From Arenicola marina (lineage: Eukaryota; Annelida; Polychaeta; Arenicolidae), in NCBI GenBank assembly GCA_964019135.1, contig OZ025265.1, positions 5,896,318 to 5,960,317 on the forward strand: 64,000 bases of DNA. Direction: 5' to 3'. Below the pieces are notes generated by a model. It did not search any database. It was not told the DNA's origin and saw only the letters and a list, made by a program, of their open reading frames with translations. Numbering within the stretch: position 1 is the stretch's first letter; every line of letters starts with the position of its first letter. Made by a program: the position numbers and the translations under genes. Shown here in pieces: positions 1,225 to 49,259 of the stretch.

Positions 1225-1245
1225 GCAATGGCTGGCGACGCTCAC

Positions 1246-1387
1246 CCTCCACGGGATCCTCGTCGTCCGTGACGTATCGCTTATCGATGGCCTCCTTGAT
1301 GTGGTTGTTGGCGCCCTTGGGGTCGAGGTCCATGGCCCACGAGAAGTTCATCAGAGCTAGGTGCGTGTTCCCCAGCTTCTTATGCAC
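1246..1387 (-). CDS. CDC27: CDC27 exon 18 (last TPR, start of acidic tail)
   Basis: Reads VHKKLGNTHLALMNF, SWAMDLDPKGANNHIKEAI and DKRYVTDDEDPVE plus one base, matching the C-terminal TPR and the start of the acidic tail of CDC27. The acceptor GTGCAG ends at 1388; the donor GTGAGC starts at 1245, phase 1. The final exon with the stop codon must lie beyond position 1. Confidence 0.97.
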
Positions 1388-1624
1388 CTGCACGGGGCAC
1401 AGCAATACAGTCAGTCAGGTCTTTGAGGGCGATGTCAAAGATAACAGGCTAAATAACATGCACACTATCAACTTAGGTTCGATGGTTAAGTGGAAACGGT
1501 TTTATTTTATTCTATTAGCATAGTTCATTATTTTCTTATTATTTATATTGCATCGCCTGTTATTTTAACAGCCATTGCTATTTTCGCAACAATATGAAAC
1601 GTTATAGCATAATGTATGATTCAC

Positions 1625-1696
<72 letters not shown>

Positions 1697-4600
1697 TAGC
1701 AAGTTATACAATGGAAGTGGGAGCAGTCAAATCTATGGCACCATAGTGCGCTTGCACCATAGTGTGGACCAGGCTATGACGGTGATGTGATCCCATGGGT
1801 CTGGCGGCCCCCTCACCTTGCCGATCAGGAAATACACGAGGGATTCCTTGGGTATAATTTCCTTCAGCTCTTCGAGCTCACTTAACGCGTCCTGGACAAA
1901 AAATACATGATATTTGAAAGTCCAGAAAGTAAAACAAAATTACCTACAGCCAACAATCCATGGTTGGTAGGGCGCTTTAACCTCAGGCTATATCGCCATC
2001 ATGGCAAGGGTCAAGGTCGAGAGAAGCCATGTCTCCAGGATTAACCCCCTAGGCCAGTGGGTGACCAAACATGGCCGAACGCGCTACGTACTAGGCCAGT
2101 GGGTGACCCAACATGGCCGAGCGCGCTACGTGCTAGGCCAGTGGGTGACCCAACATGGCCGAACGCGCTACGTATTAGGCAAGTGGGTGCCCCAACACGG
2201 CCGAGCGCGCTACGTACTAGGTCAGTGGGTGACCCAACATGGCCGAACGCGCTACGCACTAGGTCAGTGGGTGACCCAACATGGCCGAACGCGCTACGCA
2301 CTAGGTCAGTGGGTGACCCAACATGGCCGAGCGCGCTACGTACTAGGCCAGTGGGTGACCCAACATGGCCGAGCGGGCTACGTACTAGGCCAGTGGGTGA
2401 CCCAACATGGCCGAACGCGCTACGTACTAGGCCAGTGGGTGACCCAACATGGCCGAACGCGCTATGTACTAGGCCAGTGGATGATCCAACATGGCCGAAC
2501 GCGCTACGTACTAGGCCAGTGGGTGACCCAACACGGCCGAGCGCGCTACGTACTAGGCGAGTGGGTGACCCAACATGGCCGAACGCGCTACGTACTAGGC
2601 CAGTGGGTGACCCAACATGGCCGAGCGCGCTACGTACTAGGCCAGTGGGTGACCCAACATGGCCGAACGCGCTACGTACTAGGCCAGTGGGTGACCCAAC
2701 ATGGCCGAGCGCGCTACGTACTAGGCCAGTGGGTGACCCAACATGGCCGAACGCGCTACGTACTAGGCCAGTGGGTGACCCAAAATGGCCGAGCGCGCTA
2801 CGTACTAGGCCAGTGGGTGACCCAACATGGCCGAGCGCGCTACGTACTAGGCCAGTGGGTGACCCAACATGGCCGAACGCGCTACGTACTAGGCCAGTGG
2901 GTGACCCAACATGGCCGAGCGCGCTACGTACTAGGCCAGTGGGTGACCCAACATGGCCGAACGCGCTACGTACTAGGCCAGTGGGTGACCCAACATGGCC
3001 GAACGCGCTACGTACTAGGCCAGTGGGTGACCCAACATGGCCGAGCGCGCTACGTACTGGGCCAGTGGGTGACCCAACATGGCCGAACGCGCTACGTACT
3101 AGGCCAGTGGGTGACCCAACATGGCCGAGCGCGCTACGTACTAGGCCAGTGGGTGACCCAACATGGCCGAACGCGCTACGTACTAGGCCAGTGGGTGACC
3201 CAACATGGCCGAGCGCGCTACGTACTAGGCCAGTGCGTGACCCAACATGGCCGAGCGCGCTACGTACTAGGCCAGTGGGTGACCCAACATGGCCGAGCGC
3301 GCTACGTACTAGGCCAGTGCGTGACCCAACATGGCCGAACGCGCTACGGACTAGGCCAGTGGGTGACCCAACATGGCCGAACGCGCTACGTACTAGGCCA
3401 GTGGGTGACCCAACATGGCCGAACGCGCTACGTACTAGGCCAGTGCGTGACCCAACATGGCCGAGCGCGCTACGTACTAGGCCAGTGCGTGACCCAACAT
3501 GGCCGAGCGGGCTACGTACTAGGCCAGTGGGTGACCCAACATGGCCGAGCGCGCTACGTGCTAGGCCAGTGGGTGACCCAACATGGCCGAGCGGTTTGGG
3601 ACCTGACCAGATTATTTAATGTTTGGTCATTGTTCAGATAAAATAAAACGGAGAAACTGACATACCGTCAAACACAAGTGTGTCCATTGGCTAATCCATT
3701 ATTACATTACCCTCATCAACTAGAAAGAGTAGAAGCGCTTTTAACATTCCTGGCAACAAAGAACATTTTTTAATGAAAATGAAGTAAATTGCCATGGTTA
3801 CCTTGTGTCTCTCGTTTGCAAACAAGATGGACGCCCGGTGGAACTTGCACAGCGGGTTTTTGGGGTCTGTGGCAATTGCTTTGTTGAGAATCTGTAGCGC
3901 GCTTTCAGACTTCTTCAAGGCGTGTTGCACCTGTTTGGGAGTTGGAATAGTTAAGTATAACGTCCTGGCTTTGTTACTGTACACACAAGGCTAATAATTA
4001 CTGTCATCTTATAGACATTTCCCTCTCATGACTTTGGTATTAACCCACGAAGCCAGTCACCGTGAATGGAATTGGGCCATTAGGATAGACTGGAAACCAC
4101 ACAAAAATCCGTCCCACCTAATGTGAGCAAACTATAACCGGATACTCACCACACCAATGTGACACAGCAACACAGAGCTCTGGGGGTTGATGGACAAAGC
4201 TTTTCGGAAGTGCACCTCGGCCAGGGCCAACTTCTCTTGTTTGTAGTACACCATCCCTAAACCGTACCTGAGGTAGTCAGACAAATGGTCAATTAACAGG
4301 TCAATTATGTAACTCTTTTACATCCTAATATCATAATAATACCATAAGATATTGGTGACATGTTGCCTCGCTACATCACGATAAATATGCCATAAGAAGT
4401 AAACAAATAAAATCATAATGACAAAAAACAAATGGGGAAGTAGAACTGAAAAGATAGAAGAGAATATAGCGCGTTGGACAGCACCCCACCCCCCCTCCCT
4501 GTCACCCACCAGGCGTTGTAGTGTCGCGGGTCGCCCCGCCCCCCCCCCCCCTTACTCACCATGCGTTGTAGCGGCGCGGGTCGAATCCCCCCCCTCCCCC

Positions 4601-7600
4601 TCCTCACTCACAAGCGTTATAGTGTCGCGGGTCGCCCCGCCCCCCCCCTTACTCACCAGGCGTTCTACTGTCACGGGTCGCCCCGCCCCCCTCCCTGTCA
4701 CCCACCAGGCGTTGTAGAGGCGCGGGTCGACCTCCCCCCCTCCCTGTCACCCACCAGGCGTTGTAGCGGCGCCGGTCGACCTCCCCCCTCCCTGTCACCC
4801 ACCAGGCGTTGTAGCGGCGCGGGTCGACCTCCCCCCCTCCCTGTCACCCACCAGGCGTTGTAGCGGCGCCGGTCGACCTCCCCCCTCCATGTCACCCACC
4901 AGGCGTTGTAGCGGCGCGGGTCGACCTCCCCCCCTCCCTGTCACCCACCAGGCGTTGTAGCGGCGCCGGTCGACCTCCCCCCTCCCTGTCACCCACCAGG
5001 CGTTGTAGTGTCGCGGGTCGCCCCGCCCCCCCCCCCCTTACTCACCATGCGTTGTAGCGGCGCGGGTTGACCCCCCCCCCACCTTACTCATCAGGCGTTG
5101 TAGCGGCGCGGATCGACCCCCCCTCCACCTTGATCACCAGGCGTTGTAGCGGCGCGGGTCGACCCCCCCCCCCCTTACTCACCAGGCGTTATAGTGGCGC
5201 GGGTCGCCCCCCCCCCCCTTACTCACCAGGCGTTGTAGTGGCGCGGGTCGACCCCCCCACTCCCTCTCTCGCTCACTCACCAGGCGTTGTAGTGGCGCGG
5301 GTCGCCCGCCCCCCCCACCTTACTCACCAGGCGTTGTAGCGGCGCGGGTCGACCCCCCCCCCACCTTACTCATCAGGCGTTGTAGCGGCGCGGGTCGACC
5401 CCCCCTCCACCTTGATCACCAGGCGTTGTAGCGGCGCGGGTCGACCCCCCCCCCCCTTACTCACCAGGCGTTATAGTGGCGCGGGTCGCCCCCCCCCCCC
5501 TTACTCACCAGGCGTTGTAGTGGCGCGGGTCGCCCCGCCCCCCTTACTCACCAGGCGTTGTAGTGGCGCGGGTCGCCCCCCCCCCCTTACTCACCGGGCG
5601 TTATAGTGGCGCGGGTCGCCCCCCCCCCCCCTTACTCACCAGGCGTTGTAGTGGCGCGGGTCGCCCCCCCCCCTTACTCACCAGGCGTTATAGTGGCGCG
5701 GGTCGCCCCCCCCCCCTTACTCACCGGGCGTTATAGTGGCGCGGGTCGCCCCCCCCTTACTCACCAGGCGTTGTAGTGGCGCGGGTCGCCCCCCCCCCCC
5801 TTACTCACCAGGCGTTGTAGTGGCGCGGGTCGCCCCCCCCTTACTCACCAGGCGTTGTAGTGGCGCGGGTCGCCCCCCCCCCTTACTCACCAGGCGTTAT
5901 AGTGGCGCGGGTCGCCCCCCCCTTACTCACCAGGCGTTGTAGTGGCGCGGGTCGCCCCCCCCCCTTACTCACCAGGCGTTGTAGTGGCGCGGGTCGACGC
6001 GGATGGCGTTCCTGAAGCAGGCCAGCGCCTTGTCCAGCTCCTCTGTCAACACGTACTCGTGGGCCAGCAGCGTGTAGGCGTAGGCGAACTCGGGATCCAC
6101 CTGGCGGCAGACGCACCAACATGTGGGTACAGAAACCTCTCCCTCTCAGACTGTCAGCCGTTCGGTACTGATCCCCCAGGATCACTGGGTCAATAGAGGC
6201 AACATTACTTTACATGTATCACTTACCTATGGCCAGCCATCTTAGTACGATAATACTTGTAACTTGCAAAGTGACCCGTCCCTCCCACACCAGAGGCTGC
6301 CATCCCCTACACAGTATAACCTGTCCCTCCCACACCAGAGGCTGCCATCCCCTACACAGTATAACCTGTCCCTCTCTCACCAAAGGCTGCCATCCCCTAC
6401 ACAGTATAACCTGTCCCTCTCTCACCAAAGGCTGCCATCCCCTACACAGTATAACCTGTCCCTCTCTCACCAAAGGATGCAATCCCCTACACAGTATAAC
6501 CTGTCCCTCTCTCACCAAAGGATGCAATCCCCTACACAGCATAACCTGTCCCTCTCTCACCAAAGGCTGCCATCCCCTACACAGTATAACCTGTCCCTCT
6601 CTCACCAAAGGATGCAATCCCCTACACAGTATAACCTGTCCCTCTCTCACCAAAGGATGCAATCCCCTACACAGCATAACCTGTCCCTCTCTCACCAAAG
6701 GCTGCCATCCCCTACACAGTATAACCTGTCCCTCCCACACCAGAGGCTGCCATCCCCTACACAGTATAACCTGTCCCTCTCTCACCAAAGGCTGCCATCC
6801 CCTACACAGTATAACCTGTCCCTCTCACACCAAAGGCTGCCATCCCCTACACAGTATAACCTGTCCCTCTCTCACCAAAGGCTGCCATCCCCTACACAGT
6901 ATAACCTGTCCCTCTCTCACCAAAGGATGCAATCCCCTACACAGTATAACCTGTCCCTCTCTCACCAAAGTCTGCCATCCTCTGCACAAGCTAGCCTGTC
7001 CTTCTCTCACCAGAGGCTGCCATCCCCTACACAGTATAACCTGTCCCTCTCTCACCAAAGGCTGCCATCCCCTACACAGTATAACCTGTCCCTCTCTCAC
7101 CAAAGGCTGCCATCCCCTACACAGTATAACCTGTCCCTCTCTCACCAAAGTCTGCCATCCTCTGCACAAGCTAGCCTGTCCTTCTCTCACCAGAGGCTGC
7201 CATCCCCTACACAGTATAACCTGTCCCTCTCTCACCAAAGGCTGCCATCCCCTACACAGTATAACCTGTCCCTCTCACCAAAGGCTGCCATCCCCTACAC
7301 AGTATAACCTGTCCCTCTCTCACCAAATCTGCCATCCTCTGCACAAGCTAGCCTGTCCTTCTCTCACCAAAGGCTGCCATCCCCTACACAGTATAACCTG
7401 TCCCTCTCTCACCAAAGGCTGCCATCCCCTACACAGTATAACCTGTCCCTCTCTCACCAAAGGCTGCCATCCCCTACACAGTATAACCTGTCCCTCTCTC
7501 ACCAAAGGCTGCCATCCCCTACACAGTATAACCTGTCCCTCTCTCACCAGAGGCTGCCATCCCCTACACAGTCAAACCTGTCCCTCTCTCACCAAAGGCT

Positions 7601-10600
7601 GCCATCCCCTACACAGTATAACCTGTCCCTCTCTCACCAAAGGCTGCCATCCCCTACACAGTATAACCTGTCCCTCTCTCACCAAAGGCTGCCATCCCCT
7701 ACACAGTATAACCTGTCCCTCTCTCACCAAAGGCTGCCATCCCCTACACGGTATAACCTGTCCCTCTCTAACCAAAGGCTTCCATCCCCTACACAGTCAA
7801 ACCTGTCCCTCTCTCACCAAAGGCTGCCATCCCCTACACAGTATAACCTGTCCCTCTCTCACCAAAGTCTGCCATCCTCTGCACAAGCTAGCCTGTCCTT
7901 CTCTCACCAAAGGCTGCCATCCCCTACACAGTATAACCTGTCCCTCTCTCACCAAAGGCTGCCATCCCCTACACAGTATAACCTGTCCCTCTCTCACCAA
8001 AGGCTGCCATCCCCTACACAGTATAACCTGTCCCTCTCTCAAAAAAAGGCTGCCATCCTCTGCACAAGCTAGCCTGTCCCTCTCTCACCAAAGGCTGCCA
8101 TCCTCTGCACAAGCTAGCCTGTCCCTCTTACACCAAAGGCTGCCATCCCCTACACAGTATAACCTGTCCCTCTCTCACCAAAGGCTGCCATCCACTACAC
8201 AGTATAACCTGTCCCTCTCTCACCAAAGGCTGCCATCCCCTACACAGTATAACCTGTCCCTCTCTCACCAAAGGCTGCCATCCCCTACACAGTATAACCT
8301 GTCCCTCCCACACTAGAGGCTGCCATCCCCTACACAGTATAACCTGTCCCTCTCTCACCAAAGGCTGCCATCCCCTACACAGTACAACCTGTCCCTCTCT
8401 CACCAAAGGCTGCCATCCCCTACACAGTATAACCTGTCTCTCTCACACCAAAGGCTGCCATCCCCTACACAGTATAACCTGTCCCTCTCTCACCAAAGGC
8501 TGCCATCCCCTACACAGTATAACCTGTCCCTCTCACACCAAAGGCTGCCATCCCCTACACAGTATAACCTGTCCCTCTCTCACCAAAGGCTGCCATCCCC
8601 TACACAGTATAACCTGTCCCTCTCTCACCAAAGGCTGCCATCAACTACACAGTATAACCTGTCCCTCCCACACCAGAGGCTGCCATCCCCTACACAGTAT
8701 AACCTGTCCCTCTCTCACCAAAGGCTGCCATCCCCTACACAGTATAACCTGTCCCTCTCTCTCACCAAAGGCTGCCATCCCCTACACAGTATAACCTGTC
8801 CCTCTCTCACCAAAGGCTGCCATCCCCTACACAGTATAACCTGTCCCTCTCTCACCAGAGGCTGCCATCCCCTACACAGTATAACCTGTCCCTCTTTCAC
8901 CAAAGGCTGCCATCCCCTACACAGTATAACCTGTCCCTCTCTCACCAAAGGCTGCAATCCCCTACACAGTATAACCTGTCCCTCTCTCACCAAAGGCTGC
9001 CATCCCCTACACAGTATAACCTGTCCCTCTCTAACCAAAGGCTGCCATCCCCTACACAGTATAGCCTGTCCCTCTCACACCAAAGGCTGCCATCCCCTAC
9101 ACAGTCAAACCTGTCCCTCTCACACCAAAGGCTGCCATCCCCTACACAGTATAACCTGTCCCTCTCACACCAAAGGCTGCCATCCCCTACACAGTCAAAC
9201 CTGTCCCTCTCACACCAAAGGCTGCCATCCCCTACACAGTATAACCTGTCCCTCTCTCACCAAAGGCTGCCATCCCCTACACAGTATAACCTGTCCCTCT
9301 CTCACCAAAGGCTGCCATCCCCTACACAGTATAACCTGTCCCTCTCTCACCAGAGGCTGCCATCCCCTACACAGTATAACCTGTCCCTCTCTCACCAAAG
9401 GCTGCCATCCACTACACAGTATAACCTGTCCCTCTCTCACCAAAGGCTGCCATCCCCTACACAGTATAACCTGTCCCTCTCTCACCAGAGGCTGCCATCC
9501 CCTACACAGTATAACCTGTCCCTTTCTCACCAAAGGCTGCCATCCCCTACACAGTATAACCTGTCCCTCTCTCACCAAAGGCTGCCATCCACTACACAGT
9601 ATAACCTGTCCCTCTCTCACCAAAGGCTGCCATCCCCTACACAGTATAACCTGTCCCTCTCTCACCAAAGGTTGCCATCCCCTACACAGTATAACCTGTC
9701 CCTCTCTCACCAAAGGCTGCCATCCCTTACACAGTATAACCTGTCCCTTTCTCACCAAAGGCTGCCATCCCCTACACAGTATAACCTGTCCCTCTCTCAC
9801 CAAAGGCTGCCATCCCCTACACAGTATAACCTGTCCCTCTCTCACCAAAGGCTGCCATCCACTACACAGTATAACCTGTCCCTTTCTCACCAAAGGCTGC
9901 CATCCACTACACAGTATAACCTGTCCCTCTCTCACCAAAGGCTGCCATCCCCTACACAGTATAACCTGTCCCTCCCACACCAGAGGCTGCCATCTCCTAC
10001 ACAGTATAACCTGTCCCTCTCTAACCAAAGGCTGCCATCCCCTACACAGTCAAACCTGTCCCTCTTTCATCCAAAGGCTGCCATCTCCTACACAGTATAA
10101 CCTGTCCCTCTCTCACCAAAGGCTGCCATCCCCTACACAGTATAACCTGTCCCTCTCTCACCAAAGGCTGCCATCCCCTACACAGTATAGCCTGTCCCTC
10201 TCTCACCAAAGGCTGCCATCCCCTACACAGTATAACCTGTCCCTCTCTCACCAAAGGCTGCCATCCCCTACACAGTATAGCCTGTCCCTCTCTCACCAAA
10301 GGCTGCCATCCCCTACACAGTATAACCTGTCCCTCTCTCACCAAAGGCTGCCATCCCCTACACAGTATAACCTGTCCCTCTCTCACCAGAGGCTGCCATC
10401 CCCTACACAGTATAACCTGTCCCTCTCTCACCAAAGGCTGCCATCCCCTACACAGTATAACCTGTCCCTCTCTCACCAAAGGCTGCCATCCCCTACACAG
10501 TATAGCCTGTCCCTCTCTCACCAAAGGCTGCCATCCTCTGCACAAGCTAGCCTGTCCCTCTCTCACCCAAGGCTGCCATCCCCTACACAGTATAACCTGT

Positions 10601-13600
10601 CCCTCTCACACCAAAGGCTGCCATCCCCTACACAGTCAAACCTGTCCCTCTCTCACCAAAGGCTGCCATCCCCTACACAGTATAACCTGTCCCTCTCTCA
10701 CCAAAGTCTGCAATCCCCTACACAGTATAACCTGTCCCTCTCTCACCAAAGGCTGCCATCCCCTACACAGTATAACCTGTCCCTCTCTCACCAAAGGCTG
10801 CCATCCCCTACACAGTATAACCTGTCCCTCTCTCACCAAAGGCTGCCATCCTCTGCACAAGCTAGCCTGTCCCTCTCACACCAAAGGCTGCCATCCCCTA
10901 CACAGTATAACCTGTCCCTCTCTCACCAAAGGCTGCAATCTCCTACACAGTATAACCTGTCCCTCTCTCACCAAAGGCTGCCATCCCCTACACAGTATAA
11001 CCTGTCCCTCTCTCACCAAAGGCTGCCATCCCCTACACAGTATAACCTGTCCCTCTCTCACCAAAGGCTGCCATCCCCTACACAGTATAACCTGTCCCTC
11101 TCTAACCAAAGGCTGCCATCCCCTACACAGTCAAACCTGTCCCTCTCTCACCAAAGGCTGCCATCCCCTACACAGTATAACCTGTCCCTCTCTCACCAAA
11201 GTCTGCCATCCTCTGCACAAGCTAGCCTGTCCTTCTCTCACCAAAGGCTGCCATCCCCTACACAGTATAACCTGTCCCTCTCTCACCAAAGGCTGCCATC
11301 CCCTACACAGTATAACCTGTCCCTCTCTCACCAAAGTCTGCCATCCTCTGCACAAGCTAGCCTGTCCTTCTCTCACCAAAGGCTGCCATCCCCTACACAG
11401 TATAACCTGTCCCTCTCTCACCAAAGGCTGCCATCCCCTACACAGTATAACCTGTCCCTCTCTCACCAGAGGCTGCCATCCCCTACACAGTATAACCTGT
11501 CCCTCTCTCACCAAAGGCTGCCATCCCCTACACAGTATAACCTGTCCCTCTCTCACCAAAGGCTGCCATCCCCTACACAGTATAGCCTGTCCCTCTCTCA
11601 CCAAAGGCTGCCATCCTCTGCACAAGCTAGCCTGTCCCTCTCTCACCCAAGGCTGCCATCCCCTACACAGTATAACCTGTCCCTCTCACACCAAAGGCTG
11701 CCATCCCCTACACAGTATAACCTGTCCCTCTCTAACCAAAGGCTGCCATCCCCTGCACAGTATAACCTGTCCCTCTCTAACCAAAGGCTGCCATCCCCTA
11801 CACAGTCAAACCTGTCCCTCTCTCACCAAAGGCTGCCATCCCCTACACAGTATAACCTGTCCCTCTCTCACCAAAGTCTGCCATCCTCTGCACAAGCTAG
11901 CCTGTCCTTCTCTCACCAAAGGCTGCCATCCCCTACACAGTATAACCTGTCCGTCTCTCACCAAAGGCTGCCATCCCCTACACAGTATAACCTGTCCCTC
12001 CCTCACCAAAGGCTGCCATCCTCTGCACAAGCTAGCATGTCCCTCTCTCACCAAAGGCTGCCATCCTCTGCACAAGCTAGCCTGTCCCTCTTACACCAAC
12101 GGCTGCCATCCCCTACACAGTATAACCTGTCCCTCTCTCACCAAAGGCTGCCATCCTCTGCACAAGCTAGCCTGTCCCTCTCTCACCAAAGGCTGCCATT
12201 CCCTACACAGTATAACCTGTCCCTCTCTCACCAAAGGCTGCCATCCCCTACACAGTATAACCTGTCCCTCTCTCACCAAAGGCTGCCATCCTCTGCACAA
12301 GCTAGCCTGTCCCTCTCTCACCAAAGGCTGCCATCCTCTGCACAAGCTAGCCTGTCCCTCTCTCACCAAAGGCTGCCATCCTCTGCACAAGCTAGCCTGC
12401 CCCTCTTACACCAAAGGCTGCCATCCCCTACACAGTATAACCTGTCCCTCTCACACCAAAGGCTGCCATCCTCTGCACAAGCTAGCCTGTCCCTCTCTCA
12501 CCAAAGGCTGCCATCCTCTGCACAAGCTAGCCTGTCCCTCTCTCACCAAAGGCTGCCATCCTCTGCACAAGCTAGCCTGTCCCTCTTACACCAAAGGCTG
12601 CCATCCCCTACACAGTATAACCTGTCCCTCTCACACCAAAGGCTGCCATCCTCTGCACAAGCTAGCCTGTCCCTCTTACACCAAGTCTTACTCACCTGAA
12701 CGGCGCGTTGAAAGAACTTAATCGCCACGTCGTGTTCCTTCTGAGAACTAAATAAGTTTCCAGTAACGCACCAAGTCTGAAACAAGTACCAAAACGAGAT
12801 CGCGTTATTATACGTTATATGGACATGTTAAATGATGACAACGAACAGTACCGCCCAACATGTCAACCAGTGACAGGTCTGTCCGTAAATCACACCACAC
12901 TGATCCTGCCAGGTTTTGTCCTTTTGAACGAAGATTTAAATACAACGATATAACCAGCATTTTAAGAAAATCATGTTTCGATTATTCTCATGGTCAAGAA
13001 AATGCACACTGGATAACTATGAGAGATCAATAAATGCTAGTTTTGTTACGACCTACCTGTGGGCAGTGCTTGTCAAGGTCGGTGAGATCATGACCTACCT
13101 GCGGGCAGTGCTTGTCAAGGTCGGTGAGATCATGACCTACCTGCGGGCAGTGCTTGTCAAGGTCGGTGACATCATGACCTACCTGTGGGCAGTGCTAGTC
13201 GAGGTCGGTGACATCATGACTTACCTGTGGGCAGTGCTAGTCGAGGTCGGTGACATCATGACCTACCTGTGGGCAGTGCTTGTCAAGGTCGGTGACATCA
13301 TGACCTACCTGTGGGCAGTGCTTGTCAAGGTCGGTGAGATCATGACCTACCTGCGGGCAGTGCTTGTCAAGGTCGGTGACATCATGACCTACCTGTGGGC
13401 AGTGCTAGTCGAGGTCGGTGACATCATGACTTACCTGTGGGCAGTGCTAGTCGAGGTCGGTGACATCATGACCTACCTGTGGGCAGTGCTTGTCAAGGTC
13501 GGTGACATCATGATCTACCTGTGGGCAGTGCTAGTCGAGGTCGGTGACATCATGACCTACCTGTGGGCAGTGCTTGTCGAGGTCGGTGACATCATGACCT

Positions 13601-28600: not shown

Positions 28601-31600
28601 GAATACCTAGACTGCGGCACGACGGCTGGTCTGACAGAGCTCAGTGCACTGAGCCAAGAATACATAGACTGCGGCACGACGGCTGGTCTGACAGAGCTCA
28701 TTGCACTGAGCCAAGAATACATAGACTGCGGCACGACGGCTGGTCTGACAGAGGTTAGTGCACTTAGCCAAGAATACCCAGACTGCGGCACGACGGCTGG
28801 TCTGACAGAGCTCATTGCACTGAGCCAAGGATACATAGACTGCGGCACGACGGCTGGTCTGACAGAGGTTAGTGCACTCACCCAAGAATACATAGACTGC
28901 GGCACGACGGCTGGTCTGACAGAGCTCAGTGCACTGAGCCAAGCATACCTAGACTGCGGCACGACGGCTGGTCTGACAGAGCTCAGTGCACTGAGCCAAG
29001 AATACCTAGACTGCGGCACGACGGCTGGTCTGACAGAGCTCAGTGCACTGAGCCAAGAATACATAGACTGCGGCACGACGGCTGGTCTGACAGAGCTCAT
29101 TGCATTGAGCCAAGAATACATAGACTGCGGCACGACGGCTGGTCTGACAGAGCTCATTGCACTGAGCCAAGAATACCCAGACTGCGGCACGACGGCTGGT
29201 CTGACAGAGCTCATTGCACTGAGCCAAGAATACATAGACTGCGGCACGACGGCTGGTCTGACAGAGCTCATTGCACTGAGCCAAGAATACCCAGACTGCG
29301 GCACGACGGCTGGTCTGACAGAGCTCAGTGCACTGAGCCAAGAATACCTAGACTGCGGCACGACGGCTGGTCTGACAGAGCTCAGTCCACTGAGCCAAGA
29401 ATACATAGACTGCGGGACGACGGCTGGTCTGACAGAGCTCAGTGCACTGAGCCAAGAATACATAGACTGCGGCACGACGGCTGGTCTGACAGAGCTCATT
29501 GCACTGAGCCAAGAATACCCAGACTGCGGCACGACGGCTCGTCTGACAGAGCTCAGTGCACTGAGCCAAGGATACATAGACTGCGGCACGACGGCTGGTC
29601 TGACAGAGGTTAGTGCACTGAGCCAAGAATACCTAGACTGCGGCACGACGGCTGGTCTGACAGAGCTCAGTGCACTGAGCCAAGAATACCTAGACTGCGG
29701 CACGACGGCTGGTCTGACAGAGCTCAGTGCACTGAGCCAAGAATACCTAGACTGCGGCACGACGGCTGGTCTGACAGAGCTCAGTGCACTGAGCCAAGAA
29801 TACCCAGACTGCGGCACGACGGCTGGTCTGACAGAGCTCAGTGCACTGAGCCAAGAATACCTAGACTGCGGCACGACGGCTGGTCTCACAGAGCTCATTG
29901 CACTGAGCCACGAATACCTAGACTGCGGCACGACGGCTGGTCTGACAGAGCTCAGTGCACTGAGCCAAGGATACATAGACTGCGGCACGACGGCTGGTCT
30001 GACAGAGCTCAGTGCACTGAGCCAAGAATACCTAGACTGTGGCACGACGGCTGGTCTGACAGAGCTCAGTGCACTGAGCCAAGCATACATAGACTGCGGC
30101 ACGACGGCTGGTCTGACAGAGGTTAGTGCACTGAGCCAAGAATACCTAGACTGCGGCACGACGGCTGGTCTGACAGAGCTCAGTGCACTGAGCCAAGAAT
30201 ACCTAGACTGCGGCACGACGGCTGGTCTGACAGAGCTCAGTGTACTGAGCCAAGAATACCTAGACTGCGGCACGACGGCTGGTCTGACAGAGCTCAGTGC
30301 ACTGAGCCAAGAATACCTAGACTGCGGCACGACGGCTGGTCTGACAGAGCTCAGTGCACTGAGCCAAGAATACATAGACTGCGGCACGACGGCTGGTCTC
30401 ACAGAGCTCATTGCACTGAGCCACGAATACCTAGACTGCGGCAAGACGGCTGGTCTGACAGAGCTCAGTGCACTGAGCCAAGAATACCCAGACTGCGGCA
30501 CGACGGCTGGTCTGACAGAGCTCAGTGCACTGAGCCAAGAATACATAGACTGCGGCATGACGGCTGGTCTGACAGAGCTCAGTGCACTGAGCCAAGCATA
30601 CATAGACTGCGGCACGACGGCTGGTCTGACAGAGCTCATTGCACTGAGCCAAGAATACCTAGACTGCGGCAAGACGGCTGGTCTGACAGAGCTCAGTGCA
30701 CTGAGCCAAGAATACCCAGACTGCGGCCCGACGGCTGGTCTGACAGCTCATTGCACTGAGCCACGAATACCTAGACTGCGGCAAGACGGCTGGTCTGACA
30801 GAGCTTAGTGCACTGAGCCAAGAATACCCAGACTGCGGCACGACGGCTGGTCTGACAGAGCTCAGTGCACTGAGCCAAGAATACCTAGACTGCGGCATGA
30901 CGGCTGGTCTGACAGAGCTCATTGCACTGAGCCACGAACACCTAGACTGCGGCAAGACGGCTGGTCTGACAGAGCTCAGTGCACTGAGCCAAGAATACAT
31001 AGACTGCGGCACGACGGCTGGTCTGACAGAGCTCAGTGCACTGAGCCAAGAATACATAGACTGCGGCACGACGGCTGGTCTGACAGAGCTCAGTGCACTG
31101 AGCCAAGAATACCTAGACTGCGGCATGACGGCTGGTCTGACAGAGCTCAGTGCACTGAGCCAAGCATACATAGACTGCGGCACGACGGCTGGTCTGACAG
31201 AGCTCATTGCACTGAGCCACGAATACCTAGACTGCGGCAAGACGGCTGGTCTGACAGAGCTCAGTGCACTGAGCCAAGAATACCCAGACTGCGGCACGAC
31301 GGCTGGTCTGACAGAGCTCAGTGCACTGAGCCAAGAATATCTAGACTGCGGCATGACGGCTGGTCTGACAGAGCTCATTGCACTGAGCCACGAACACCTA
31401 GACTGCGGCAAGACGGCTGGTCTGACAGAGCTCAGTGCACTGAGCCAAGAATACATAGACTGCGGCACGACGGCTGGTCTGACAGAGCTCAGTGCACTGA
31501 GCCAAGAATACATAGACTGCGGCACGACGGCTGGTCTGACAGAGCTCAGTGCACTGAGCCAAGAATACCTAGACTGCGGCATGACGGCTGGTCTGACAGA

Positions 31601-34600
31601 GCTCAGTGCACTGAGCCAAGCATACATAGACTGCGGCACGACGGCTGGTCTGACAGAGCTCATTGCACTGAGCCAAGAATACCTAGACTGCGGCAAGACG
31701 GCTGGTCTGACAGAGCTCATTGCACTGAGCCAAGGATACATAGACTGCGGCACGACGGCTGGTCTGACAGAGCTCAGTGCACTGAGCCAAGAATACCTAG
31801 ACTGCGGCACGACGGCTGGTCTGACAGAGCTCAGTGCACTGAGCCAAGAATACCTAGACTGCGGCACGACGGCTGGTCTGACAGAGCTCATTGCACTGAG
31901 CCACGAATACCTAGACTGCGGCAAGACGGCTGGTCTGACAGAGCTCAGTGCACTGAGCCAAGAATACCCAGACTGCGGGACGACGGCTGGTCTGACAGAG
32001 CTCAGTGCACTGAGCCAAGAATACCTAGACTGCGGCATGACGGCTGGTCTGACAGAGCTCAGTGCACTGAGCTAAGCATACATAGACTGCGGCACGACGG
32101 CTGGTCTGACAGAGCTCATTGCACTGAGCCAAGAATACCTAGACTGCGGCAAGACGGCTGGTCTGACAGAGCTCATTGCACTGAGCCAAGGATACATAGA
32201 CTGCGGCACGACGGCTGGTCTGACAGAGGTTAGTGCACTCAGCCAAGAATACATAGACTGCGGCACGACGGCTGGTCTGACAGAGCTCAGTGCACTGAGC
32301 CAAGCATACATAGACTGCGGCACGACGGCTGGTCTGACAGAGCTCATTGCACTGAGCCAAGAATACCCAGACTGCGGCACGACGGCTGGTCTGACAGAGC
32401 TCAGTGCACTGAGCCAAGAATACCTAGACTGCGGCACGACGGCTGGTCTGACAGAGCTCAGTGCACTGAGCCAAGAATACCTAGACTGCGGCACGACGGC
32501 TGGTCTGACAGAGCTCAGTGCACTGAGCCAAGAATACATAGACTGCGGGACGACGGCTGGTCTGACAGAGCTCAGTGCACTGAGCCAAGCATACATAGAC
32601 TGCGGCCCGACGGCTGGTCTGACAGAGCTCATTGCACTGAGCCAAGAATACCTAGACTGCGGCACGACGGCTGGTCTGACAGAGCTCAGTGCACTGAGCC
32701 AAGAATACCTAGACTGCGGCAAGACGGCTGGTCTGACAGAGCTCAGTGCACTGAGCCAAGCATACATAGACTGCGGCAAGACGGCTGGTCTGACAGAGGT
32801 TAGTGCACTGAGCCAAGAATACCTAGACTGCGGCACGACGGCTGGTCTGACAGAGCTCAGTGCACTCAGCCAAGAATAACTAGACTGCGGCACGACGGCT
32901 GGTATGACAGAGCTCAGTGCACTCAGCCAAGAATACATAGACTGCGGCACGACGGCTGGTCTGACAGAGCTCAGTGCACTGAGCCAAGAATACATAGACT
33001 GCGGCACGACGGCTGGTCTGACAGAGCTCAGTGCACTGAGCCAAGAATACATAGACTGCGGCACGACGGCTGGTCTGACAGAGCTCATTGCACTGAGCCA
33101 AGAATACATAGACTGCGGCACGACGGCTGGTCTGACAGAGGTTAGTGCACTTAGCCAAGAATACCCAGACTGCGGCACGACGGCTGGTCTGACAGAGCTC
33201 ATTGCACTGAGCCAAGGATACATAGACTGCGGCACGACGGCTGGTCTGACAGAGGTTAGTGCACTCAGCCAAGAATACATAGACTGCGGCACGACGGCTG
33301 GTCTGACAGAGCTCAGTGCACTGAGCCAAGCATACCTAGACTGCGGCACGACGGCTGGTCTGACAGAGCTCAGTGCACTGAGCCAAGAATACCTAGACTG
33401 CGGCACGACGGCTGGTCTGACAGAGCTCAGTGCACTGAGCCAAGAATACATAGACTGCGGCACGACGGCTGGTCTGACAGAGCTCATTGCATTGAGCCAA
33501 GAATACATAGACTGCGGCACGACGGCTGGTCTGACAGAGCTCATTGCACTGAGCCAAGAATACCCAGACTGCGGCACGACGGCTGGTCTGACAGAGCTCA
33601 TTGCACTGAGCCAAGAATACATAGACTGCGGCACGACGGCTGGTCTGACAGAGCTCATTGCACTGAGCCAAGAATACCCAGACTGCGGCACGACGGCTGG
33701 TCTGACAGAGCTCAGTGCACTGAGCCAAGAATACCTAGACTGCGGCACGACGGCTGGTCTGACAGAGCTCAGTCCACTGAGCCAAGAATACATAGACTGC
33801 GGGACGACGGCTGGTCTGACAGAGCTCAGTGCACTGAGCCAAGAATACATAGACTGCGGCACGACGGCTGGTCTGACAGAGCTCATTGCACTGAGCCAAG
33901 AATACCCAGACTGCGGCACGACGGCTCGTCTGACAGAGCTCAGTGCACTGAGCCAAGGATACATAGACTGCGGCACGACGGCTGGTCTGACAGAGGTTAG
34001 TGCACTGAGCCAAGAATACCTAGACTGCGGCACGACGGCTGGTCTGACAGAGCTCAGTGCACTGAGCCAAGAATACCTAGACTGCGGCACGACGGCTGGT
34101 CTGACAGAGCTCAGTGCACTGAGCCAAGAATACCTAGACTGCGGCACGACGGCTGGTCTGACAGAGCTCAGTGCACTGAGCCAAGAATACCTAGACTGCG
34201 GCACGACGGCTGGTCTGACAGAGCTCAGTGCACTGAGCCAAGAATACCTAGACTGCGGCACGACGGCTGGTCTGACAGAGCTCATTGCACTGAGCCACGA
34301 ATACCTAGACTGCGGCACGACGGCTGGTCTGACAGAGCTCAGTGCACTGAGCCAAGGATACATAGACTGCGGCACGACGGCTGGTCTGACAGAGCTCAGT
34401 GCACTGAGCCAAGAATACCTAGACTGTGGCACGACGGCTGGTCTGACAGAGCTCAGTGCACTGAGCCAAGCATACATAGACTGCGGCACGACGGCTGGTC
34501 TGACAGAGGTTAGTGCACTGAGCCAAGAATACCTAGACTGCGGCACGACGGCTGGTCTGACAGAGCTCAGTGCACTGAGCCAAGAATACCTAGACTGCGG

Positions 34601-37600
34601 CACGACGGCTGGTCTGACAGAGCTCAGTGTACTGAGCCAAGAATACCTAGACTGCGGCACGACGGCTGGTCTGACAGAGCTCAGTGCACTGAGCCAAGAA
34701 TACCTAGACTGCGGCACGACGGCTGGTCTGACAGAGCTCAGTGCACTGAGCCAAGAATACATAGACTGCGGCACGACGGCTGGTCTCACAGAGCTCATTG
34801 CACTGAGCCACGAATACCTAGACTGCGGCAAGACGGCTGGTCTGACAGAGCTCAGTGCACTGAGCCAAGAATACCCAGACTGCGGCACGACGGCTGGTCT
34901 GACAGAGCTCAGTGCACTGAGCCAAGAATACATAGACTGCGGCACGACGGCTGGTCTGACAGAGCTCAGTGCACTGAGCCAAGCATACATAGACTGCGGC
35001 ACGACGGCTGGTCTGACAGAGCTCATTGCACTGAGCCAAGAATACCTAGACTGCGGCAAGACGGCTGGTCTGACAGAGCTCAGTGCACTGAGCCAAGAAT
35101 ACCCAGACTGCGGCCCGACGGCTGGTCTGACAGCTCATTGCACAGAGCCACGAATACCTAGACTGCGGCAAGACGGCTGGTCTGACAGAGCTTAGTGCAC
35201 TGAGCCAAGAATACCCAGACTGCGGCACGACGGCTGGTCTGACAGAGCTCAGTGCACTGAGCCAAGAATACCTAGACTGCGGCATGACGGCTGGTCTGAC
35301 AGAGCTCATTGCACTGAGCCACGAACACCTAGACTGCGGCAAGACGGCTGGTCTGACAGAGCTCAGTGCACTGAGCCAAGAATACCTAGACTGCGGCATG
35401 ACGGCTGGTCTGACAGAGCTCAGTGCACTGAGCCAAGCATACATAGACTGCGGCACGACGGCTGGTCTGACAGAGCTCATTGCACTGAGCCACGAATACC
35501 TAGACTGCGGCAAGACGGCTGGTCTGACAGAGCTCAGTGCACTGAGCCAAGAATACCCAGACTGCGGCACGACGGCTGGTCTGACAGAGCTCAGTGCACT
35601 GAGCCAAGAATATCTAGACTGCGGCATGACGGCTGGTCTGACAGAGCTCAGTGCACTGAGCCAAGAATACATAGACTGCGGCACGACGGCTGGTCTGACA
35701 GAGCTCAGTGCACTGAGCCAAGAATACATAGACTGCGGCACGACGGCTGGTCTGACAGAGCTCAGTGCACTGAGCCAAGAATACCTAGACTGCGGCATGA
35801 CGGCTGGTCTGACAGAGCTCAGTGCACTGAGCCAAGCATACATAGACTGCGGCACGACGGCTGGTCTGACAGAGCTCATTGCACTGAGCCAAGAATACCT
35901 AGACTGCGGCACGACGGCTGGTCTGACAGAGCTCAGTGCACTGAGCCAAGAATACATAGACTGCGGCACGACGGCTGGTCTGACAGAGCTCAGTGCACTG
36001 AGCCAAGAATACCTAGACTGCGGCACGACGGCTGGTCTGACAGAGCTCAGTGCACTGAGCCAAGAATACATAGACTGCGGGACGACGGCTGGTCTGACAG
36101 AGCTCAGTGCACTGAGCCAAGCATACATAGACTGCGGCCCGACGGCTGGTCTGACAGAGCTCATTGCACTGAGCCAAGAATACCTAGACTGCGGCACGAC
36201 GGCTGGTCTGACAGAGCTCAGTGCACTGAGCCAAGAATACCTAGACTGCGGCAAGACGGCTGGTCTGACAGAGCTCAGTGCACTGAGCCAAGCATACATA
36301 GACTGCGGCACGACGGCTGGTCTGACAGAGGTTAGTGCACTGAGCCAAGAATACCTAGACTGCGGCACGACGGCTGGTCTGACAGAGCTCAGTGCACTCA
36401 GCCAAGAATACCTAGACTGCGGCACGACGGCTGGTCTGACAGAGCTCAGTGCACTGAGCCAAGAATACCTAGACTGCGGCACGACGGCTGGTATGACAGA
36501 GCTCAGTGCACTCAGCCAAGAATACATAGACTGCGGCACGACGGCTGGTCTGACAGAGCTCAGTGCACTGAGCCAAGAATACATAGACTGCGGCACGACG
36601 GCTGGTCTGACAGAGCTCATTGCACTGAGCCAAGAATACATAGACTGCGGCACGACGGCTGGTCTGACAGAGCTCATTGCACTGAGCCAAGAATACCCAG
36701 ACTGCGGCACGACGGCTGGTCTGACAGAGCTCATTGCACTGAGCCAAGAATACATAGACTGCGGCACGACGGCTGGTCTGACAGAGCTCATTGCACTGAG
36801 CCAAGAATACCCAGACTGCGGCACGACGGCTGGTCTGACAGAGCTCAGTGCACTGAGCCAAGAATACATAGACTGCGGCATGACGGCTGGTCTGACAGAG
36901 CTCAGTGCACTGAGCCAAGAATACATAGACTGCGGCACGACGGCTGGTCTGACAGAGCTCATTGCATTGAGCCAAGAATACATAGACTGCGGCACGACGG
37001 CTGGTCTGACAGAGCTCAGTGCACTCAGCCAAGCATACCTAGACGGCGGCACGACGGCTGGTCTGACAGAGCTCATTGCACTGAGCCAAGAATACATAGA
37101 CTGCGGCACGACGGCTGGTCTGACAGAGCTCAGTGCACTGAGCCAAGAATACCTAGACTGCGGCACGACGGCTGGTCTGACAGAGCTCATTGCACTGAGC
37201 CAAGAATACCCAGACTGCGGCACGACGGCTGGTCTGACAGAGCTCAGTGCACTGAGCCAAGAATACATAGACTGCGGCACGACGGCTGGTCTGACAGAGC
37301 TCATTGCACTGAGCCAAGAATACCCAGACTGCGGCACGACGGCTGGTCTGACAGAGCTCAGTGCACTGAGCCAAGAATACATAGACTGCGGCATGACGGC
37401 TGGTCTGACAGAGCTCAGTGCACTGAGCCAAGAATACATAGACTGCGGCACGACGGCTGGTCTGACAGAGCTCAGTGCACTGAGCCAAGAATACATAGAC
37501 TGCGGCACGACGGCTGGTCTGACAGAGCTCAGTGCACTGAGCCAAGAATACATAGACTGCGGGACGACGGCTGGTCTGACAGAGCTCAGTGCACTGAGCC

Positions 37601-40600
37601 AAGAATACATAGACTGCGGGACGACGGCTGGTCTGACAGAGCTCAGTGCACTGAGCCAAGAATACCCAGACTGCGGCACGACGGCTGGTCTGACAGAGCT
37701 CAGTGCACTGAGCCAAGAATACATAGACTGCGGCATGACGGCTGGTCTGACAGAGCTCAGTGCACTGAGCCAAGAATACATAGACTGCGGCACGACGGCT
37801 GGTCTGACAGAGCTCAGTGCACTGAGCCAAGAATACCTAGACTGCGGCACGACGGCTGGTCTGACAGAGCTCAGTGCACTGAGCCAAGAATACATAGACT
37901 GCGGGACGACGGCTGGTCTGACAGAGCTCAGTGCACTGAGCCAAGAATACATAGACTGCGGCACGACGGCTGGTCTGACAGAGCTCAGTGCACTGAGCCA
38001 AGAATACCTAGACTGCGGCACGACGGCTGGTCTGACAGAGCTCAGTGCACTGAGCCAAGAATACATAGACTGCGGGACGACGGCTGGTCTGACAGAGCTC
38101 AGTGCACTGAGCCAAGCATACATAGACTGCGGCACGACGGCTGGTCTGACAGAGCTCATTGCACTGAGCCAAGAATGCCCAGACTGCGGCACGACGGCTG
38201 GTCTGACAGAGCTCATTGCACTGAGCCAAGAATACCTAGACTGCGGCACGACGGCTGGTCTGACAGAGCTCAGTGCACTGAGCCAAGAATACCTAGACTG
38301 CGGCATGACGGCTGGTCTGACAGAGCTCAGTGCACTGAGCCAAGAATACCTAGACTGCGGCACGACGGCTGGTCTGACAGAGCTCAGTGCACTGAGCCAA
38401 GAATACCTAGACTGCGGCATGACTGCTGGTCTGACAGAGCTCAGTGCACTGAGCCAAGCATACATAGACTGCGGCACGACGGCTGGTCTGACAGAGCTCA
38501 TTGCACTGAGCCAAGAATACATAGACTGGAGCACGACGGCTGGTCTGACAGAGCTCAGTGCACTGAGCCAAGAATACCTAGACTGCGGCACGACGGCTGG
38601 TCTGACAGAGCTCAGTGCACTGAGCCAAAAATACCTAGACTGCGGCACGACGGCTGGTCTGACAGAGCTCAGTGCACTGAGCCAAGCATACATAGACTGC
38701 GGCACGACGGCTGGTCTGACAGAGCTCAGTGCACTCAGCCAAGAATACCTAGACTGCGGCACGACGGCTGGTCTGACAGAGCTCAGTGCACTGAGCCAAG
38801 AATAACTAGACTGCGGCACGACGGCTGGTCTGACAGAGCTCAGTGCACTCAGCCAAGCATACATAGACTGCGGCACGACGGCTGGTCTGACAGAGCTCAT
38901 TGCACTGAGCCAAGAATACCTAGACTGCGGCACGACGGCTGGTCTGACAGAGCTCAGTGCACTGAGCCAAGAATACCTAGACTGCGGCACGACGGCTGGT
39001 CTGACAGAGCTCAGTGCACTCAGCCAAGAATACCTAGACTGCGGCAAGACGGCTGGTCTGACAGAGCTCAGTGCACTGAGCCAAGAATACCTAGACTGCG
39101 GCACGACGGCTGGTCTGACAGAGCTCAGTGCACTGAGCCAAGCATACATAGACTGCGGCACGACGGCTGGTCTGACAGAGCTCAGTGCACTGAGCCAAGC
39201 ATACATAGACTGCGGCACGACGGCTGGTCTGACAGAGCTCAGTGCACTGAGCCAAGAATACCTAGACTGCGGCACGACGGCTGGTCTGACAGAGCTCAGT
39301 GCACTGAACCAAGAATACATAGACTGCGGCATGATGGCTGGTCTGACAGAGCTCAGTGCACTGAGCCAAGAATACATAGACTGGAGCACGACGGCTGCTC
39401 TGACAGAGCTCAGTGCACTGAGCCAAGAATACTTAGACTGCGGCACGACGGCTGGTCTGACAGAGCTCAGTGCACTGAGCCAAGCATACATAGACTGCGG
39501 CACGACGGCTGGTCTGACAGAGCTCATTGCACTGAGCCAAGAATACATAGACTGCGGCACGACGGCTGGTCTGACAGAGCTCATTGCACTGAGCCAAGAA
39601 TACCTAGACTGCGGCACGACGGCTGGTCTGACAGAGCTCATTGCACTGAGCCAAGAATACCTAGACTGCGGCACGACGGCTGGTCTGACAGAGCTCAGTG
39701 CACTGAGCCAAGCATACATAGACTGCGGCACGACGGCTGGTCTGACAGAGCTCATTGCACTGAGCCAAGAATACCCAGACTGCGGCACGACGGCTGGTCT
39801 GACAGAGCTCAGTGCACTGAGCCAAAAATACCTAGACTGCGGCACGACGGCTGGTCTGACAGAGCTCATTGCACTGAGCCAAGAATACCTAGACTGCGGC
39901 AAGACGGCTGGTCTGACAGAGCTCAGTGCACTGAGCCAACAATACCTAGACTGCGGCACGACGGCTGGTCTGACAGAGCTCATTGCACTGAGCCAAGAAT
40001 ACCCAGACTGCGGCACGACGGCTGGTCTGACAGAGCTCAGTGCACTGAGCCAAGAATACCTAGACTGCGGCACGACGGCTGGTCTGACAGAGCTCATTGC
40101 ACTGAGCCAAGAATACCTAGACTGCGGCAAGACGGCTGGTCTGACAGAGCTCAGTGCACTGAGCCAACAATACCTAGACTGCGGCACGACGGCTGGTCTG
40201 ACAGAGCTCAGTGCACTGAGCCACGAATACCTAGACTGCGGCACGACGGCTGGTCTGACAGAGCTCAGTGCACTGAGCCAAGAATACCTAGACTGCGGGC
40301 TAGGCGTCTGCACGTCTCTCATGCTGTTGGTGCTGATGTTGCCGGACTGGCTGAAGACGGGGGGACGGGGGGCGGGGTGGGCGGCCGTCTGCTGGCCACG
40401 CCTCGTCGTCAGCTGGGGAGAGAGAATCAACAAGCATCATCACCATCGGGATCCGGCGGGAAGGGGGTGGGGGGGGGCACAGGCACACTTTGAAATGAGA
40501 CGCCTCATGTGAGTTTAACTTTCGAAGGAATTAATGTTCATGCTAATAATCTTATTTACACCTGTGGTATTAAGCAAAAGAAAGCCTGACCCTTACGATC

Positions 40601-47945: not shown

Positions 47946-48181
47946 AGTTTTGATTTTACTGTGGTAGTATGCGCTTTCTTAAAAAACGAAAGCTCTAATT
48001 ATTATAAATATCCAGTCGGTGATTCTAACTCAGTCGCCATCGATGCACCAATTCTGCTTCAGGTCATATCAAAACGAGGCTCTATAAATAGCAGCAGACG
48101 GTGTTGCCCGGAATTCCCTAAATTACGCGTGTTGGTCAGTCTTTATATCTCAGGGACAACCGCTACGCGGCGCTATCTCAC

Positions 48182-48189
48182 GACGTCAC
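48182..48189. promoter_or_regulatory. CRE-like element upstream of CDC27
   Basis: GACGTCAC (GTGACGTC on the minus strand) is a near-consensus CREB/ATF site about 240 bases upstream of the CDC27 start codon. It lies in a locally CpG-richer stretch (about 48100-48210). Its role in CDC27 transcription is inferred from position only. Confidence 0.4.
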
Positions 48190-48213
48190 TCGAGAGCCTT
48201 GCTGCAACGGACC

Positions 48214-48265
48214 AAGGATAGTGTATAATTATACACTATCCTTAATATAATTATACACTATCCTT
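48214..48265. repeat. 30-bp perfect palindrome plus an extra half copy upstream of CDC27
   Basis: AAGGATAGTGTATAA is followed immediately by its exact reverse complement (48214-48243). A third partial copy in direct orientation, ATAATTATACACTATCCTT, follows at 48247-48265. It lies about 270 bases upstream of the CDC27 ATG, in the putative promoter or 5' UTR intron. Confidence 0.9.
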
Positions 48266-49200: not shown

Positions 49201-49218
49201 GTGAGTGACACGTTGCAA

Positions 49219-49229
49219 ACGTCACTTCC
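49219..49229. promoter_or_regulatory. Composite CRE/ETS element of the SEC61B promoter
   Basis: ACGTCACTTCC (GGAAGTGACGT on the minus strand) fuses an ETS core with a CRE half-site. This composite is common in promoters of broadly expressed animal genes. It lies 28 bases before the SEC61B ATG, so it is close to or within the transcription start region. No TATA box is seen. Confidence 0.5.
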
Positions 49230-49256
49230 TTTCCACGCAAACAAGCAGCCGAGAAA

Positions 49257-49259
49257 ATG
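49257..49259 (+). CDS. SEC61B: SEC61B exon 1 coding part (ATG only)
   Basis: GAGAAAATG followed directly by GTGAGTGCC: a good start context (A at -3), with the donor immediately after the ATG. It fits exon 2, which opens with the second codon in phase 0 (CCAGTTCCA, P-V-P) and has no ATG of its own in frame. Confidence 0.8.

Follow-up and report, generated by a model that had tools for sequence, protein, structure and literature searches.

Tandemly copied splice junctions in the CDC27 gene of the annelid Arenicola marina

The 64,000-nucleotide stretch of Arenicola marina DNA analyzed here (contig OZ025265.1, positions 5,896,318 to 5,960,317; hereafter the window) holds a CDC27 gene in which several intronic minisatellites look like series of the gene's own splice junctions, which raises the question of what such arrays are, whether they lie at junctions more often than chance would place them and how an exon finds its proper splice site among so many copies. 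Arrays of this kind, called mirage minisatellites, have been described in lancelets, in Adh3 (Canestro et al. 2002, PMC117041, as cited in PMC3087553), in the globin genes BflGb6 and BflGb9 (PMC3087553) and in TnC and PGBD5 (PMC3902484). By these reports they comprise donor as well as acceptor forms, that of BflGb6 being on the acceptor side (Ebner et al. 2010, PMC3087553), and do not disturb regular splicing (PMC3087553, PMC3902484); their units measure 10-160 bp, with 6 and 3 copies at two BflGb6 haplotypes and 3 copies of 108 bp at PGBD5 (PMC3087553, PMC3902484). The original prediction, which likened the arrays of CDC27 to these, proposed that the arrays after exons 8, 12 and 14 repeat the donor side of the junction and the one before exon 11 the acceptor side.

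The junction-spanning arrays of CDC27

CDC27 lies on the minus strand, where homology sets 17 exons (exons 2 to 18, or E2-E18) with GT-AG at all introns and a stop-free reading frame of 844 residues. The protein aligns to human CDC27 (PDB 5g04_F) with an E value of 4.1e-280, residues 228-285 remaining unaligned, and at the joint of E8 and E9 the human protein has some 11 more residues and an unrelated sequence. Since coding exon 1 is placed by motif at 47922-47945, the earlier numbering of exons 8, 11, 12 and 14 holds. Regarding the host, it had been taken for an amphioxus, and this candidate is rejected on three counts. The CDC27 of Branchiostoma floridae is 46% identical to that of the window, which is matched best, among 120 matches listed, by that of the annelid Paralvinella (61% over the entire query); a quick tree built from 44 proteins puts the window CDC27 in a six-member set including the annelids Paralvinella and Lamellibrachia (support by the Shimodaira-Hasegawa-like approximate likelihood ratio test, SH-aLRT, 96), the lancelet standing with hemichordates, echinoderms and vertebrates (99); and the COX1 of the assembly, read with genetic code 5, is 92% identical to that of Pilargis wolfi and 90% to that of Namalycastis among the best 120 of 7,999 matches. 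Judged by these sequences, the host is an annelid and would probably be a phyllodocidan close to Pilargidae and Nereididae.

A 24-mer probe spanning each of the 34 junctions of E2-E18 and searched in the window with up to 4 mismatches found further same-strand copies of four junctions, namely 349 of the E8 donor, 54 of the E11 acceptor, 40 of the E12 donor and 30 of the E14 donor, all of them in the array adjoining the exon of origin. The remaining 30 of the 34 junctions have no further copy anywhere in the window by this search, and none of the 34 probes has a copy on its opposite strand. The arrays delimited by Tandem Repeats Finder (TRF) end inside the exons, by 11 nt at E8, 29 nt at E12, 24 nt at E14 and 21 nt at E11, and the alignment of each unit consensus with the adjoining exon-intron boundary, as had been asked for, returned the same lengths, with two substitutions in the 29 exon nucleotides of E12 and two in the 21 of E11. 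It is thus confirmed that splice junctions of CDC27 are tandemly copied in adjoining arrays (Table 1), and the assignment of exons 8, 12 and 14 to the donor side and of exon 11 to the acceptor side was right, as was the claim of independent units within one gene, the four units being mutually different. At these 4 of 34 junctions the unit unites exon, intron and splice site and the true junction lies inside the array. Many of the copies, hereafter decoys, keep the essential dinucleotide, although not all of them: GT is retained in 346 of 351 decoys at E8, in 40 of 40 at E12 and in 29 of 31 at E14, and AG in 50 of 56 at E11.

Table 1. Positions of the arrays and exons discussed. Plain positions are those of the window; C20 and C1 designate contigs; a slash marks a splice site.
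Feature	Position	Strand	Description	Basis
CDC27 exons 2-18	1246..44133	-	final coding part outside the window	homology placement
CDC27 coding exon 1	47922..47945	-	MVIQEPVQ, then gt	motif only
CDC27 exon 8	40288..40412	-	true donor TAG/gtattc at low end, within array edge	homology and alignment
Array at exon 8 donor	20241..40298	-	57-bp unit, 352 copies; last 11 nt of exon 8 plus 46 nt of intron 8 from the 5' splice site	TRF, probe, alignment
CDC27 exon 11	15610..15782	-	true acceptor at high end	homology
Array at exon 11 acceptor	15762..18846	-	53-bp unit, about 58 copies (56 decoys scored); 32 nt of intron 10 up to and including its 3' splice site (ttgcctacag), then first 21 nt of exon 11	TRF, probe, alignment
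CDC27 exon 12	14737..14889	-		homology
Array at exon 12 donor	13050..14765	-	42-bp unit, 41 copies; final 29 nt of exon 12, closing with CAG, plus 13 nt of intron 12 (gtaggtcatgatg)	TRF, probe, alignment
CDC27 exon 14	5973..6100	-		homology
Array at exon 14 donor	4489..5996	-	about 32 copies of a unit of some 46 bp with a G run of variable length; final 24 nt of exon 14, closing with CTG, plus start of intron 14 (gtgagtaagg and G run)	TRF, probe, alignment
Array past exon 13	6274..12684	-	45-bp unit, 142 copies; begins 12 nt past the donor; no crossing	TRF
Array past exon 18	1..1226	-	27-bp unit; begins 20 nt past the donor; continues about 1.6 kb outside the window; no crossing	TRF
Array in intron 16	2049..3593	-	42-bp unit; 158 nt from nearest junction; ordinary intronic minisatellite	TRF
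Array ahead of exon 12	14920..15171	-	12-bp unit; ends 31 nt ahead of the acceptor; no crossing	TRF
Array at DPP-like exon donor	C20:5962793-5993010		30 kb, 46-bp unit with the exon donor; 664 decoys, 643 with GT	exon matches DPP4 near SYGG motif
HDAC6 zinc-finger exon mirage	C1:2205400-2207300		first decoy with 22 exact exon nt; 50-bp spacing	HDAC6 match, E 1.7e-10

The E8 array, whose decoys follow each other at 57 bp (346 intervals) or 55 bp (5), bears the marks of turnover, with 91 distinct units among the 346 of 57 bp and the five 55-bp units at separate positions; higher-order periods occur in several arrays. The most variable column of the E8 unit is the base at position -1 of the decoy donor (G in 214 and T in 129 of 346), and positions -2 and +5 are also among the top five. 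Selection for weaker decoys was considered as a cause and rejected, the changes going in both directions; a single ancestral change spread by turnover would match.

The lancelet reports bear out the resemblance on which the original prediction drew (PMC3087553). As in lancelets, the worm unit spans a true exon-intron boundary on the donor or the acceptor side and many repeats keep AG or GT. Unlike the lancelet arrays, with few copies where these were counted, those of the worm hold 4 to 664 decoys, reach 30 kb, occur several to a gene and are found in an annelid; we regard the taxon as a circumstance of the lancelet cases and not as a defining feature, and the worm arrays suggest that mirage arrays are not peculiar to lancelets. 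As far as can be told, the phylum, the array size, the number per gene and a hint of donor bias are new. An acceptor-side mirage, in contrast, which had been held to be exceptional, is not new, since the lancelet globin gene BflGb6 already provides one (PMC3087553). No annelid mirage was found in a literature search covering the titles and abstract beginnings of open-licence papers, and the accessible part of a paper on earthworm metallothionein describes intron minisatellites with no mention of junction-spanning units. Ordinary intronic minisatellites, to which four of the eight arrays of CDC27 belong, differ from mirages in staying outside exons. Turri et al. are said to have described in 1995 a minisatellite of the human gene IFI6 (6-16) with multiple donors in a 12-bp unit, some of which are used; that array, too, places a series of donors at the end of an exon.

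Splice-site choice and the placement of arrays

CDC27 is not alone in carrying such arrays. It is adjoined by a gene of the DPP-IV/DPP6 family (Pfam Peptidase_S9, 1.5e-11, and DPPIV_N, 7.4e-14 and 2.5e-7; DPP4 and DPP6 structures matched), hereafter the DPP-like gene, with five donor mirages of 664, 64, 22, 4 or 5, and 4 decoys. The case is weaker for two of these mirages, one adjoining an N-terminal exon that lacks homology support (4 decoys, 2 with GT) and the other, DPPe, having an ambiguous donor with two GT sites, both of which are repeated.

Across seven donor arrays of the two genes, 1,145 of 1,176 decoys have GT and 809 the true donor's nine bases, and donor choice therefore cannot rest on these nine bases. 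With a simple matrix, 899 decoys score at least as high as the true donor (189 of 351 in the E8 array), with the reservation that 664 of the 1,176 belong to a single array, in which 537 share the nine bases. Beyond the first donor, read-through is stopped after 23 codons (E12) or 1 codon (E14), so that use of the first donor is needed there for the full protein; an in-frame stop is present in 21 of the 40 E12 units. As exon definition would have it, the acceptor of an exon probably pairs with whichever suitable donor comes first, the later copies becoming intron. Splice-site choice is usually studied with few competitors; with 664 donor copies in one intron of the DPP-like gene and 351 in intron 8 of CDC27, motif strength would not explain the choice, and position or exon definition would have to decide.

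Are junctions covered more often than expected? By TRF, 66% of the window is tandem array (42,127 of 64,000 bases), and in the 264 kb around it 58 arrays of at least 150 bases make up 58% of the sequence. Of 54 arrays tested in this region, 49 match only themselves within 318 kb, and at that range their units are thus local and not a dispersed satellite. The assembly (867 Mb, 762 contigs) was also sampled at preset positions, one 3-kb stretch being taken from each of 18 contigs while two more of the 20 chosen were too short, counting arrays with a period of at least 7 and a length of about 100 bases or more: 52% of the sample is array (28,263 of 54,000 bases), with units of 10-130 bp, two stretches being all array and three without any. 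The genome of this worm, in the sample, is about half tandem array, and some overlap with junctions is therefore expected. As 11-29 exon bases recur at the correct place and on the correct strand, the matches in CDC27 are not chance; the overlap of arrays with junctions is by itself less improbable than it appears.

Expected overlap was computed with every array reduced to a single unit and with positions wholly inside exons left out, placement being either uniform or matched for guanine-plus-cytosine content (GC). Under uniform placement, 1.02 of the 8 arrays of CDC27 are expected to span a junction and 4 do (P 0.011). For the DPP-like gene, which in contrast to CDC27 was not picked for its junction arrays, 5 of 12 span one, compared with 1.08 under uniform (P 0.0023) and 2.18 under GC-matched placement (P 0.043); for its donors the figures are 5 and 1.26 (P 0.009, or 0.043 if the gene had half as many junctions again). 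This gene model, with 15 exons, must be incomplete. The tests took one exon end at 5961405 where it is 5961407, which shifts one distance from 13 to 15 nt, and the count uses a minimum of 1 exon nucleotide, a 10-nt version being one too high because of the array DPPa, where exon and unit overlap by 9 exon nt. Taken together, 9 of the 20 arrays of both genes span a junction, with 2.1 expected under uniform and 4.23 under GC-matched placement (P 0.029). Of the comparison of donors, acceptors and chance that had been proposed, run here in two worm genes, the donor side gave an excess (8 vs 2.44 expected with GC matching, P 0.004) and the acceptor side none (1 vs 1.80). Donor words scoring 10 bits occur in 7 of the 58 units of the 264-kb region and in none of the 58 reversed ones, shuffles giving an expectation of 0.85. 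Genome-wide, triple tandem occurrences of the donor word CAGGTGAGT at set spacing were counted at 2,860 places, vs 928 for the word read backward (3.1-fold), and those of the acceptor word TTTTGCAGG at 41 places vs 93.

A tentative origin and its rivals

We consider, with a probability of roughly 0.68, that these mirage-type minisatellites are GC-rich arrays born at exon ends, which survive as splicing keeps the exon-proximal donor. Short GC-rich duplications would arise constantly, most readily in GC-rich sequence; in the window exons have 56% GC and introns 40%, and arrays 43-71%. An array confined to an exon would be purged because it alters the protein, while a unit that includes the 5' splice site could grow freely because the spliceosome would pair that exon's acceptor with the closest donor downstream of it. 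All further donor copies would become intron, and turnover by unequal exchange and slippage would expand the array until it held tens or hundreds of units. A repeat born at the end of an exon would in this manner become harmless by including the splice site, with no regulatory function needed, and the excess of donors over GC-matched placement points to a more frequent tolerance, or birth, of arrays at donors than of those at acceptors.

Several results weigh against this account or its donor component. With GC matching, 2.05 of the 8 arrays of CDC27 are already expected to span a junction (P 0.11 for the 4 seen), and its donors alone stand at 3 vs 1.18 (P 0.12); together with the five mirages of the DPP-like gene, this takes away from the claim that several in one essential gene are exceptional. 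The contrast between donors and acceptors comes from 9 arrays in two adjacent genes, with P 0.053 for the donor share. Below 10 bits, the 58 units differ little from reversed ones (20 vs 20 at 6 bits, 14 vs 15 at 7, 9 vs 11 at 8 and 7 vs 5 at 9). The genome-wide counts cover a single word for each side, the further words AAGGTAAGT (donor) and CTTTCCAG (acceptor) being without a count, and they are counts of places and not of arrays, so that long arrays dominate them. The true donor 9-mer, retained in 31 of 40 decoys at E12, is found in half or fewer at E8 (141 of 351), at E14 (15 of 31) and in the N-terminal array of the DPP-like gene (2 of 4). Finally, use of the first donor is something that we infer.

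A rival possibility, on which we look as a doubtful but serious one, is that gene structure has no influence on where arrays land, GC being the one weight on their otherwise random placement, that the junction-spanning ones are the survivors and that donor bias is absent. The GC-matched expectations of 2.05 of 8 and 2.18 of 12 agree with it, as does the P of 0.11 for CDC27, and the window had been picked by its reader for junction arrays. The DPP-like gene had not, and its excess (P 0.043, and P 0.009 for donors) speaks against pure by-products, with the caveat that the latter P rises to 0.043 if the model misses a third of the junctions; the 3.1-fold genome-wide excess of the donor word, with none for the acceptor word, points the same way. 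If the donor bias is real, it might reflect birth instead of survival, exon 3' ends and 5' splice sites nucleating minisatellites through pausing, R-loops, U1 binding or the word GGTRAGT. The 8 donor and 1 acceptor spanning arrays of the two genes would fit, as would the genome-wide donor-word excess and three more arrays that begin 12, 15 and 20 nt past a donor, the 15-nt one adjoining the DPP-like exon without homology support. The mechanism is a proposal, however, and better tolerance of donor decoys predicts the same pattern; two arrays sit 16 and 31 nt ahead of an acceptor, and GC matching by itself favors donors (2.44 vs 1.80). We consider donor-specific birth to be unlikely.

Could the decoys be used as alternative donors, yielding variants of protein length or dosage? 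At E8 the 57-bp unit is a multiple of 3, the frame past the first donor stays open for 5,239 nt (1,747 codons) and an in-frame stop occurs in 3 of 351 units. A coding tandem repeat of the mucin type would have its repeats translated in the mature mRNA; judged from the genomic sequence, the frame, open past E8, is stopped early at E12 and E14. About half of the E12 units contain a stop, an open unit of 19 codons is not rare by chance and human CDC27 has no such repeat, although some 11 additional residues and an unrelated sequence distinguish it at the E8-E9 joint; use of the copies appears very improbable. Slightly more improbable still is that the arrays serve as raw material for intron gain, a central copy becoming a new exon, as proposed for lancelet globins (PMC3087553): the arrays do keep intact donors, and acceptors at E11, but within the part of CDC27 that aligns to the human protein, that is, outside residues 228-285, no recent splitting of an exon was noticed. 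Least of all do we credit false expansion or scrambling of repeats by the assembly. The 91 distinct units among 346 at E8, the higher-order periods and the scattered 55-bp units argue against it, as do the lack of any N in the window, the 33-Mb contig, the presence of arrays on 15 of 18 sampled contigs and of donor arrays on contig C1, even if exact copy numbers may be wrong.

Returning to survival through the exon-proximal donor, a bolder extension may be put forward with caution, and we rate it as doubtful: in this annelid lineage, 5' splice sites across the genome would be the preferred places for minisatellites to arise or to persist, the spliceosome ignoring decoys by position alone. If so, intact decoy donors would stand by the tens or hundreds beside the true donor in many genes, which would constitute a natural, replicated experiment on donor choice among identical rivals, and repeats would have a donor-directed route of birth, of which we found no report. 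Gene-finding tools that depend on splice motifs are likely to mis-annotate genes in genomes of this kind.

Further arrays and neighboring loci

Four of the eight CDC27 arrays are ordinary intronic minisatellites (Table 1), three of which begin or end close to a junction. Those past E13 and E18 were considered as mirages and rejected, as they start inside the intron. The unit of the former has a donor-like site of its own, TTTG/gtgaga, which is not exon-derived, and the 12-bp array of intron 11 reads on the minus strand as an open repeat rich in Asp and His. When the four wholly intronic arrays are counted, the unit length is divisible by 3 in 6 of 8. Two further arrays, with units of 44 and 58 bp, lie between the exons of CDC27 and those of the DPP-like gene at window positions 56200-61372 and 62848-64000. 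A tRNA scan of the window and an Rfam scan of 40299-56199 gave no match.

Around the window, a scan of the 58 arrays for a coding exon joined to a repeated splice site returned 10 positives at a score of at least 20, vs a single one among 58 controls made by reversal or complementation, and 14 vs 5 at a score of 15. Five of the ten belong to the DPP-like gene, and the positive at 6042213, being low-complexity, is excluded from the mirages. The scan missed the E14 donor and produced an opposite-strand artefact there. Exon predictions in the flanks are mostly single or doubtful, the whole region giving 31 at a score of at least 20, exons of CDC27 and of the DPP-like gene included, vs 3 when reversed. 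At six neighboring array edges, picked by donor score or by eye, an open frame enters the array and ends at the repeated donor in each case. An exon of Ly6 type near the window has a donor array with 18 decoys, and an exon at 5797089 is weakly identified as of ligand-gated ion channel (LGIC) type (Pfam E 0.02, below the cut-off, and no PDB match); its decoy figures are left out of account. A 9.4-kb array of 39-bp units with acceptor-like ends (C20:5995997-6005402) stops 16 nt ahead of the acceptor of a DPP-like exon; the tract before that acceptor resembles the unit, and the exon itself is unrepeated.

The four tandem-donor arrays heading the list of the genome-wide pattern search lie on contig C1. 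Besides the HDAC6 zinc-finger exon (Table 1), an unassigned acidic exon has 33 of its nucleotides in the first decoy. In a third array (L045) the first decoy shares 3 exon nucleotides (CAG) only, which makes it a donor array and hardly a mirage; the peptide of its exon matches a lustrin-type cysteine domain, just under the Pfam cut-off. The stretch around the fourth (L047) is nearly all array, with the exon edge outside the view. In the surroundings of CDC27, exons of a predicted RING-finger gene (Pfam zf-RING_UBOX, 1.2e-11) at C20:5887297-5889487 are array-free as seen, and a long receptor-like frame is present at 5875891.

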